Assembly: GCA_945905295.1 (NCBI GenBank)
Contig: CAMDPX010000042.1
Coordinates: forward strand, 1-40,818
Direction: 5' to 3'
Length of the DNA: 40,818 nucleotides
Origin: Planctomyces sp. SH-PL62
GTDB taxonomy: Bacteria; Planctomycetota; Planctomycetia; Planctomycetales; Planctomycetaceae
The notes beneath the pieces are model-generated. The model did no database searches. It saw nothing but the letters and a program-made list of their open reading frames with translations, and was not told where the DNA came from. Below are positions 29,072 to 30,659 of this stretch, one piece after another (the first letter of the stretch is position 1; each line of letters opens with the position of its first letter). The position numbers and the translations under genes are program-made.

Positions 29072-29305
29072 TCACCCGGCACCATCGGCGATCTCAGAGT
29101 TGTTGGCTCGGCGTCCCCATTTCTTCACGAGGCACGCAGCGACTTCCAACGGGCGTGATTCGAAGGAGTCGATGTACTCGCGAAACGGGACCAGCTCCGG
29201 TGAGGACCGCAACTGCTCAAGAATTTCTGCGGGCGATCGTTCTGCCGCCAACTGTTCCAACAACGCCGCTTGGAACCGCGCCAATGCGATTTCATCCTGC
29301 GTCAT
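29072..29305 (-). CDS. 77-aa protein coupled to the DUF692 gene
   Basis: A small, mostly helical soluble protein (MTQDEIALARFQAALLEQL) ending in SFESRPLEVAACLVKKWGRR plus a short polar tail. I do not recognise its family. It overlaps the 3' end of the DUF692 gene by 14 bases in another frame, which implies tight co-translation. Known MNIO enzymes need a small partner that delivers the precursor peptide (MbnC, TglI or DUF2063 types); this protein is shorter than those but is the obvious candidate for that role here. It has one cysteine. Confidence 0.75.
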   Translation of the reverse strand: MTQDEIALARFQAALLEQLAAERSPAEILEQLRSSPELVPFREYIDSFESRPLEVAACLVKKWGRRANNSEIADGAG

Positions 29306-30164
29306 GCACCACCTGCTTCAATCTCCGAAAGTCGGCTTGAAACTGCGCGGCTTCCGATGGAGGCAAGGAACCACCGATCCGCTCCAGCACGACTGCTTGA
29401 ATCGCAGGGCAGCGCCGCAGCACTTCTGGCAACCAGTCGAACAACTCGGACGGGATCGCGCCATCGTGCGTGTCGCGGCGAATCGAGTGGGACTCGGCAT
29501 CGGAATGACTCCACGAACCGCCGGAGACGTGCAGTTCGCGAACTCGTTCCAGCGGATACTCCCGCAGCAACGTCTCCCACGGATGGCCAAAGTTCTGGGA
29601 CTGGCAATACACGTTGTGCAAATCGAGCAACAGAAAGCCATCGACCGCCGACAGTAATTCGCCCAGGAAACGACCTTGGTCAGCGACGTCCTGCGCACCA
29701 AATGCGAACGCCAAATTCTCGAGGCCGATCGGACGCTGCGCAACTTCCGCCAGCCGGCGCAACCGCTCCTGGCCAAGTCGCAACGTGGTGCCCGTCAACG
29801 GCACCGGCAAGGGCGCGGACTGATGAAAGTTGCCGCCCGCACAAAAGCCGAAATGTTCGGAGATCTGTTGGTAGCGATAGCGTTCCACTTCGCTTCCCAA
29901 CTTCGCCAGCCACCGTTCTTGGGGAGCTCGCCAATCCGCCGACAGCAGCGAATACGAGACACCATGCCCGAACAAACGACCGGCTTGACTGAATGTCTCC
30001 AGCAAACCTGCGGACCACTCCGGGAGTTTCGGCAGTGACCATCCGACGTCAAAGCTCCATTCGAGAACCTCGACCTCTTCCGCGGCGAACAACGGATACG
30101 CCGCAGCCAGAAAGTCCGCCTCCAGCATCAACGCCAGCCCGACCCACGGAGTGTTGCGTTCCAT
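29292..30164 (-). CDS. DUF692 multinuclear non-heme iron enzyme (MNIO)
   Basis: 290 aa, TIM-barrel DUF692 family. Expected iron-ligand positions are present in order: HGVSYSL, SEHFGF, GLENLAF, LLDLHNVY, RELHVSGG, RDTHDGAIP and VVLERIGG. Characterised members (MbnB, TglH and relatives) use two or three irons and oxygen to modify cysteine or other residues of ribosomal peptides. GAGG lies seven bases before the ATG. It is the middle gene of a three-gene minus-strand set: a small lipoprotein ending in a CPPC motif 44 bases upstream and a 77-aa protein overlapping downstream. The family call is firm; the substrate is inferred from position. Confidence 0.88.
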   Translation of the reverse strand: MERNTPWVGLALMLEADFLAAAYPLFAAEEVEVLEWSFDVGWSLPKLPEWSAGLLETFSQAGRLFGHGVSYSLLSADWRAPQERWLAKLGSEVERYRYQQISEHFGFCAGGNFHQSAPLPVPLTGTTLRLGQERLRRLAEVAQRPIGLENLAFAFGAQDVADQGRFLGELLSAVDGFLLLDLHNVYCQSQNFGHPWETLLREYPLERVRELHVSGGSWSHSDAESHSIRRDTHDGAIPSELFDWLPEVLRRCPAIQAVVLERIGGSLPPSEAAQFQADFRRLKQVVHDAG

Positions 30165-30208
30165 ACATCCGCCTCAAAACATGGCACGGATTGATTGTCC
30201 GCCGAACG

Positions 30209-30409
30209 TCAACCTTGGCCGCACGGAGGACAATAGTCTGGATCATGCTTTCGGGCTGGGACGGGTACCTCGCCAGGTTCCTGAATGGAAGTCGGCCCCG
30301 GCTTGCCGTCTGGCGGCAAAGAGGAGTCCGACGACGGCTGGCATCCAAGGAAACTCGTGGCCATCGCCGCAGTCGTCATCAAGCTGAGAACCGACGCCGG
30401 TATTTTCAT
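30209..30409 (-). CDS. Small lipoprotein with C-terminal CPPC motif, candidate MNIO substrate
   Basis: 66 aa. The N-terminal signal (MKIPASVLSLMTTAAMA) ends in a lipobox-like SFLGC, so Cys23 would be lipidated. The mature part is a 43-44-residue Pro/Ser/Glu-rich spacer ending HDPDYCPPCGQG. GGAG lies nine bases before the ATG, supporting translation. It stands 44 bases upstream of, and in the same direction as, the DUF692 gene. Its two cysteines at the extreme C-terminus resemble core peptides that MNIO enzymes modify, and metal binding by the CPPC pair alone is another option. The lipobox (Phe at -3, Leu at -2) is imperfect. Confidence 0.72.
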   Translation of the reverse strand: MKIPASVLSLMTTAAMATSFLGCQPSSDSSLPPDGKPGPTSIQEPGEVPVPARKHDPDYCPPCGQG

Positions 30410-30435: not shown

Positions 30436-30592
30436 CCTGACTCTCCGAGGCTGTGAATTAATTGGTAGCTGAACTCGCCAGAGTTCAGTTTTCTCGGCGA
30501 ATTCTGAAGTCTGGCGACTTCAGCTACCAAAAGGTTCACAGCCTCTCCGAGTCGGACATTCTGAGAAAAACGCCCGACTCGGAGAGTCAGGC
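30436..30592. repeat. Nested composite palindrome
   Basis: Outermost is a TCC-loop REP pair (CCTGACTCTCCGAG at 30436, with GTCGG and its inverted mate to 30592). Into its first hairpin a 93-base block is inserted with ends GCTGTGAA (30450) and TTCACAGC (30542). The 9-base sequence CTCTCCGAG is present on both sides (30441-30449 and 30543-30551). Inside that block is an inverted pair of 24-base GTAG elements (30465-30488 and 30504-30527). The outer frame recurs at 40486-40608 with different contents. No gene is apparent in the 30410-30659 gap. Confidence 0.85.
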
Positions 30593-30659
30593 AACGATCA
30601 AATGCGACTTCTCGGGCAGCCCCTCAGATGCACGGACCACGGAAAAAATTCCCGGAATG

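Follow-up and report, generated by a model that had tools for sequence, protein, structure and literature searches.

A putative three-gene chryseobasin-type cassette with a split MNIO enzyme and a probable lipoprotein precursor in a planctomycete

Introduction

The closest described systems belong to the ChrH/DybH subfamily of MNIO enzymes, in which Planctomycetota are named as a small cluster; precursors of this subfamily that are lipidated and carry a CPxCGxG tail have been named DAG-RiPPs, a RiPP-lipoprotein hybrid type, in a preprint of November 2025 (PMC12636315). The lipidated peptide DybA is converted by DybH into a product of −4 Da that contains a macrocycle and a hydantoin, and a DybA mutant with a CPPCGMG tail was accepted as a substrate (PMC12636315). 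In Cyanobacteriota, the C-terminal domain MelHc is encoded separately and is required for the activity of MelH (PMC12636315). The characterised products of the subfamily are macrocycle-hydantoins with a function that the authors call unclear; the split domain was reported in Cyanobacteriota, and lipidated precursors in Bacteroidota and in other MNIO families (PMC12636315).

The locus described here lies in a 40,818-nucleotide stretch of Planctomyces sp. SH-PL62 DNA, hereafter the window. Like DybA/DybH of Dyadobacter crusticola, it is a minimal cassette that combines a putative lipoprotein precursor and a CPxCGxG tail with an adjoining ChrH-family MNIO; it differs in that the C-terminal domain is fused in DybH and separate in the window, in its tail (CPPCGQG as against CPACGMG), and in its host, a member of the Planctomycetota rather than the Bacteroidota (PMC12636315). 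As in MelA1/MelH/MelHc of a melainabacterium, the barrel and the C-terminal helical domain are encoded by different genes, but MelA1 has a mass of 34 kDa and an SPI signal, and the substrate in the window is a 66-aa putative lipoprotein (PMC12636315). The Chryseobacterium pair ChrA/ChrH (PMC10214503; NF050165, NF050124) provides the best enzyme model and the same tail type, and Chryseobacterium precursors also begin with MKIP or MKVP; unlike the window locus, however, ChrA has a non-lipoprotein signal, and ChrH is fused, methylates its product and belongs to a larger cluster with ChrI, ChrE and ChrP. MbnBC and TglHI, for which structures have been solved, share the barrel fold and the iron ligands, but MbnC and TglI bind leader peptides via a β-sheet (PMC10214503), whereas the small protein of the window is modelled entirely as helix.

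From this comparison and the analyses below, we propose that the locus is very probably a three-gene chryseobasin-type DAG-RiPP cassette, with a two-gene enzyme, a −4 Da ring in the tail, and a precursor lipidated at Cys23. A preliminary description of this DNA had considered a lipidated precursor and so short a partner protein to be undescribed, but both are already present in PMC12636315; as far as the text of that paper goes, the parts are known, and what is new is that a planctomycete combines a split enzyme and a probable lipoprotein. The locus is thus ordinary in kind and well explained by PMC12636315, to which an N-terminal element, a tolerant tail and an unlinked carrier are additions. 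What the locus contributes is the placement of a probably lipidated, split-enzyme cassette of chryseobasin type in the Planctomycetota, and three testable points for the subfamily, namely the dispensable tail proline, the repeated joining and parting of barrel and helical domain, and the N-terminal element.

Results and Discussion

Organization of the locus and assignment of the MNIO enzyme

All three open reading frames that had been claimed for the locus are present on the minus strand within about 1.3 kb, and the spacing given for them is exact, with a 44-base gap between precursor and enzyme genes (30165-30208) and a 14-base overlap between the enzyme gene and the third gene (29292-29305). 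The 290-aa product of the middle gene (29292..30164, minus strand) consists of the catalytic barrel only. Its preliminary assignment to DUF692 was right, since it matches Pfam PF05114 (MbnB_TglH_ChrH) with an E-value of 9.9e-34, and the expected ligand motifs are in place: when the enzyme is aligned by profile with the TglH chain, all nine iron ligands of TglH, as named in PMC10880893, are identical in the window enzyme (H67, H104, E149, D181, N184, H212, D231, H233, and E261). The same nine residues are invariant in all 53 family rows of the barrel-only tree alignment. The AlphaFold2 model of the enzyme (pLDDT 90.0, pTM 0.90) finds TglHI as its top fold match (8hi7, E 2.2e-16) and MbnBC as the second.

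Among NCBIfam models, the enzyme is matched best by NF050165 (MNIO_ChrH), which scores 339 bits (cut-off 600) and aligns from position 2 to position 284 of its 363 positions, followed by NF050167 BufB (98.4 bits), HvfB (86.6 bits), ApyH (39 bits), and MbnB (19.6 bits). A genome scan gave 90 relatives, and the enzyme is 41-61% identical to the best 80 of these, which were the ones analyzed. The 66-aa precursor is matched over the whole length of NF050125 (ChrA_rel_RiPP; 20.8 bits, model 1-56 of 56, cut-off 40), which is its sole NCBIfam precursor match at E ≤ 1; NF050124 gave no match at this threshold. By these profile comparisons, the enzyme is a member of the ChrH/DybH (chryseobasin) subfamily of MNIOs. 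Because enzyme (339 of 600 bits) and peptide (20.8 of 40 bits) both fall under the equivalog cut-offs, we place the locus in the subfamily and not among the chryseobasins proper. Membership among the bufferins was rejected on the BufB score (98.4 of 310 bits) and on the single precursor match to ChrA_rel_RiPP, and membership among the methanobactins on the family scores (19.6 bits for MbnB against 339 for ChrH).

The third gene encodes the C-terminal domain of the enzyme

The 77-aa product of the third gene (29072..29305, minus strand) had been taken for a partner protein of the MbnC/TglI kind, which our results do not support. A profile built from the C-terminal domains of fused ChrH enzymes matches the 77-aa protein with 24.0 bits (E 4.1e-8 in a set of 19 sequences) and recognizes all 19 split proteins supplied to it. 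In the reverse test, a profile of the split proteins matches 50 of 58 fused enzymes and misses 8; of the 59 fused loci, 31 showed the domain when all six frames were searched with it at E ≤ 0.01. The Bacteroidota C-terminal domains are distant; a profile-profile alignment by hhalign, with 19 rows on the split side (two of them fused melainabacterial domains) and 23 rows of Bacteroidota C-domains, gave 96.7% with an E-value of 4.6e-10. The structural model of the 77-aa protein (pLDDT 87.8) comprises four helices and no other secondary structure, a fold search of this model against the PDB returned no match at E ≤ 0.001, and neither Pfam nor NCBIfam contains a model that matches the protein near any cut-off. 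On the evidence of the profile searches, the hhalign comparison and the all-helix model, the 77-aa protein is the C-terminal helical domain of ChrH, absent from the window enzyme and carried on a gene of its own in the manner of MelHc, an identity that accounts for the presence of this otherwise puzzling gene. The C-domain matches, the helical model and the fold search without a PDB match likewise led us to reject a leader-binding partner as the identity of the gene product.

Among the best 80 of the 90 relatives, the helical domain is fused to the barrel in 59 and unfused in 21, the fused class being made up of 58 enzymes longer than 355 aa, three overlong frames having been excluded, and L105. 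All 21 loci without the fused domain have, overlapping or directly adjoining the end of the enzyme gene, a homologue of the 77-aa protein, and no homologue was found elsewhere in the loci. Trees were calculated for the window and 52 of the 80 loci, after 28 Chryseobacterium rows had been dropped as near-duplicates. On the barrel-only tree (53 rows), the fused or split state requires at least four changes; a tree that includes the fused-domain columns, and hence the very trait that is counted, also gives four. The fused Bacteroidota enzymes form one clade with a support of 97/98, and the window is placed among the remaining rows, 22 of them split and three fused. In these trees, barrel and helical domain have been joined or separated several times.

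The precursor and its C-terminal tail

The first gene (30209..30409, minus strand) encodes a 66-aa putative lipoprotein of the ChrA/DybA precursor type, with the N-terminal sequence MKIPASVLSLMTTAAMATSFLGC, the C-terminal sequence HDPDYCPPCGQG, and cysteines at positions 23, 60, and 63. Residues 1-22 (30344..30409) were read as a lipoprotein signal peptide that ends in SFLG-C, making Cys23 (30341..30343) the predicted diacylglyceryl anchor. The lipobox is loose in this reading (SFLGC, with F at −3 and L at −2), and the signal peptide is weakly hydrophobic, no segment exceeding the cut-off in a 12-mer scan. The Omnitrophota relative L031 reads VMGC and likewise has its cysteine at residue 23, and genes for both Lgt and LspA are present in the genome of the window. 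The 66-aa precursor is probably a lipoprotein anchored at Cys23. The predicted site of the macrocycle and hydantoin is the CPPCGQG tail, residues 60-66 (30212..30232, minus strand; pattern match 30209-30232), for which the chemistry is assigned by homology to the systems in PMC12636315. The earlier proposal that the lipoprotein is the substrate, that its two C-terminal cysteines are the site, and that modification precedes export agrees with what is described for DybA/DybH, MelA1/MelH/MelHc, and ChrA/ChrH (PMC12636315, PMC10214503), and we adopt it by homology.

That proposal had also named conservation of the tail beside homologous enzymes as a point to check, and a tail of the CxxCGxG type indeed adjoins 78 of the best 80 of the 90 relatives. 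At 69 of the 80 loci, an open reading frame has CPxC[GA] close to its end, and with variant tails allowed, a C..[CY]G.G tail ends within 900 bases upstream of the enzyme at 75. The total of 78 is reached with L102, L105, and L110, whose CPxCGxG tails had been missed because the enzyme frames were called too early, and it includes L043, where the tail lies only within a 26-residue open stretch, and L070, which has lost the second cysteine. L053 has no tail of this type, and neither has L084, which is close to the end of a contig. Duplicate loci were recognized (L113 of L061, L111 of L038), and L113 was excluded from the counts.

The variant tails include CRACGMG (in L031), CLACGMG, CIACGMG, CLKCGRG, CEECGRG, CYGCGRG, and CGPCGMG. 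Among the relatives, then, the tail proline is not universal and is dispensable in nature. The CPPC form of the window occurs naturally in two other tails, CPPCGKG in L092 and CPPCGRG in L158. At the sixth position, the window has Gln where Met is usual, and one of 84 tailed frames shares this residue (CPACGQG, L050). In Chryseobacterium phosphatilyticum (L070:3770-3997), the precursor tail reads CPAYGMG, with the second cysteine of the ring replaced by Tyr, which may reflect decay of this copy or an error in the sequence. In L037, L054, L058, L072, L095, and L103, a single enzyme is preceded by two or three precursors with a tail, and some of the tails differ.

Proposed modification and alternative readings

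By analogy with these systems, the 290-aa MNIO would bind two or three irons and would need the 77-aa helical protein to form an active enzyme. In the cytoplasm, the enzyme complex would draw the CPPCGQG end of the 66-aa peptide into the active site, where a four-electron oxidation (−4 Da) would link the Cys60 thiol to the β-carbon of Cys63, and from that residue on the backbone would be turned into a hydantoin, leaving one thiol free. Export, lipidation by Lgt at Cys23, and cleavage by LspA would follow, and a ringed peptide of 44 residues would be displayed on the membrane. We infer complex formation, product structure, the order of steps, and lipidation; that the product is free of S-methylation is a guess from MelH and the least certain part of the proposal. 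Points against the proposal are the Gln in the tail, the loose lipobox with its weakly hydrophobic signal, and the scores under the equivalog cut-offs. The same cassette might instead have an enzyme that, like ChrH, also uses SAM to S-methylate the product (+10 Da); besides the +10 Da product of ChrH, the myxococcal ArlAH yielded unmethylated as well as S-methylated products (PMC12636315), and the window sequence holds nothing against such a step. We regard methylation as unlikely, however, since the Chryseobacterium enzymes belong to the fused Bacteroidota clade (97/98 in the barrel-only tree), of which the window is not a member, and since split MelH with MelHc yielded a product of −4 Da (PMC12636315).

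A further alternative is that the cassette is a decaying or silent copy that is no longer expressed. Upstream of the precursor start, at a distance of 36 bases, is a near-perfect 103-base palindrome (30446-30548; RNA fold z-score −10.6) that is present in at least 42 copies in the genome, this one included, the others being 93-97% identical; the count derives from 84 matches in which each copy appears on both strands, with 40 of 181 candidates scored. It resembles a MITE- or REP-like repeat, and its position makes expression of the cassette uncertain. A ChrH-type enzyme at E ≤ 1e-30 was moreover found in just three of 170 genomes of the family, which also speaks for a silent copy. Nevertheless, none of the three frames is interrupted, all nine iron ligands and the two tail cysteines have been retained, and relatives at 41-61% identity have the same layout, so that we consider a decaying or silent copy quite improbable. 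Between the upstream gene and the repeat, a terminator-like hairpin with a T-run was seen on the minus strand (30571-30593), in a scan that found four such sites where 2.4 were expected. With this hairpin before the repeat, the promoter of the cassette may lie at or just after the repeat; a promoter scan found no site, a result of little weight because 0.3 sites were expected by chance.

The four neighbors tested comprise, by Pfam, an L-PSP (RidA-like) protein, an enolase-superfamily protein and a sulfatase, together with a ferredoxin-like 4Fe-4S frame 1.5 kb away, and none of them hints at a role for the cassette. CxxC motifs generally bind metals. The earlier suggestion that the tail serves as a copper or iron ligand, considered here for a modified as well as an unmodified tail, could also appeal to the copper-binding products of other MNIOs (methanobactins, bufferins, and oxazolins; PMC12636315), but it is very unlikely, given that nothing we found points to a metal, that the enzyme scores far higher with ChrH than with bufferin and methanobactin models, that DybAH is reported without the UV feature of those heterocycles (PMC12636315), that no metal transporter occurs among the four neighbors, and that the characterised subfamily products are macrocycle-hydantoins.

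Enzymes of the ChrH type scoring above 300 bits were found in three of the 392 genomes sampled from the phylum. No protein family is shared by ten flanking proteins taken from seven loci of the eight listed. In the Omnitrophota locus (L031:2198-3732), genes for an ECF-type sigma factor and a zf-HC2 (anti-sigma-like) protein end 62 bases before the precursor gene, and this pair possibly regulates the cassette. A scan of viral contigs for relatives gave 27 stretches that matched the pattern and no confirmed case; one plasmid-borne record was found, in Hymenobacter volaticus.

A conserved N-terminal element in the precursors

The window peptide begins with MKIPASVLSLM (residues 1-11, within the signal peptide; 30377..30409, minus strand), and most small precursors share this element in the form M-[KNHE]-[IL]-[PS]-x-x-[LIV]-[LI]-x-x-[LMI]. 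The 11-residue form is present in 69 of the 84 tailed frames of the relatives, as against two of 839 control frames, and is missing from the other 15. The motif was defined after the CPxCG set had been viewed; its 8-residue form occurs in 64 of the 73 precursors of that set (window included): in all 55 from Bacteroidota, all four from Myxococcota, and four of seven from Planctomycetota (window included), and more sparsely in Melainabacteria (one of three), other Cyanobacteriota (none of three), and Verrucomicrobiota (none of one). None of 466 control frames and none of the 107 with a signal-like stretch contain the 8-mer, whereas the 4-residue core M.[ILV][PS] by itself occurs in 14 and four of these, respectively; one stray frame of 40 residues in L051 also matched the 8-mer. 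Outside the defining set, five of eight variant-tail loci match the 8-mer (L031, whose peptide begins MKIPASVL like that of the window, and L051, L070, L087, and L107), L054 and L064 start with MKIP and match the 11-mer only, and L033 matches neither. The precursor of the plasmid locus L189 matches the 11-mer. Taking the groups of the CPxCG set together with the Omnitrophota (L031), the element spans five phyla.

A lipobox-like cysteine is present at 23 of the 64 loci that have an 11-mer precursor, and Chryseobacterium precursors have a signal of a different kind. Most occurrences of the element are equally consistent with an ordinary signal peptide. More telling are some precursors in which polar or charged residues stand between the element and the hydrophobic stretch, 23 of them in L108 and nine in L058, with further examples in L088, L064, and L054; the second L058 precursor has RRRGPRG after the element, and in L088 no more than MKIP and position 11 is retained. 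Neither the four Cyanobacteriota peptides L032-L035 nor the large carriers L036, L062, and L110 have the element, and L038 lacks it too. We tentatively raise the possibility, which we hold to be less probable than not, that ChrH-type precursors have two conserved ends, the N-terminal one being an amphipathic element that is independent of the export route (Sec/SPI, lipoprotein, or membrane anchor) and that would act as a second docking or escort signal holding the peptide for the enzyme before export; where the element is absent, the tail would be a mobile tag borne by other carriers, among them a Tat-like lipoprotein whose gene is distant from that of the enzyme. Reading of the element by the helical domain was considered as well and is weakened, because the cyanobacterial and large carriers have the domain and not the element. 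DybH modifies GFP that carries the tail alone (PMC12636315), which means that catalysis in E. coli does not require the element, and its conservation fits poorly with the published view that selection on the N-terminus is relaxed because the tail is enough by itself. The text of PMC12636315, searched by terms, makes no mention of an N-terminal element to the extent that it was available; in L061 and L102, however, the N-terminal part is already covered by the ChrA-related NCBIfam model, and conservation of the element is therefore implicit in that model.

Unlinked substrates and large carriers

A ChrH-type enzyme was found in three of 59 related genomes, which are also the three among the 170 of the family. 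When these genomes were scanned for CPxCGxG followed by a stop, a strict pattern that proline-free variants would escape in this and the other substrate scans, five proteins of at least 60 residues were obtained. Among them are the window peptide, an 84-aa membrane-anchored peptide that adjoins the enzyme (genome G011), and, as the only CPxCGxG-tailed protein found in genome G017, a lipoprotein-like protein of 273 aa that starts with a Tat-like RR and ends in CPPCGRG. The remaining two (L157 and L162) read as zinc ribbons and come from genomes that have no enzyme. In the genome of the window, the pattern gave three matches, two of them in frames of 30 and 17 residues, so that only the window peptide is convincing. 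Nine genomes without a CPxCG neighbor gave four matches and no convincing unlinked substrate: one was not followed by a stop, and the others were in frames of 24, 14, and 68 residues with no signal seen.

In G017, the enzyme is encoded on contig C16 and the 273-aa protein on C179, and the 10 kb around the enzyme contain no frame that ends in CxxCGxG. The 273-aa protein is related to the enzyme-adjacent carriers of L062 (275 aa, E 3.5e-10) and L036 (267 aa, E 2.7e-7), as judged from three sequences compared with their common tail included. This relatedness, together with the unlinked gene, suggests that in this branch the tail is probably a tag on a larger exported protein, and we infer that the tail of the 273-aa lipoprotein would be modified in trans in G017. 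Planctomycete carriers of about 270 aa (L158:1504-2322, L036:3181-3981, and L062:2664-3488), with Tat-like and lipobox-like starts and a CPxCGxG tail, are rare; no Pfam family covers them above its cut-off, and a search with the 275-aa carrier of L062 in 392 genomes of the phylum gave one weak match that lacks the tail. A weak homologue of the carriers (L180:1252-2175, genome G365; E 8.7e-4) is without the Cys tail and has the C-terminal repeats TTLALGEEG and TTLAIGEEGG. These repeats have no NCBIfam match, and we found no paper on repeats of the TTLALGEEG type; in sequence, they look like the core of another modified peptide.
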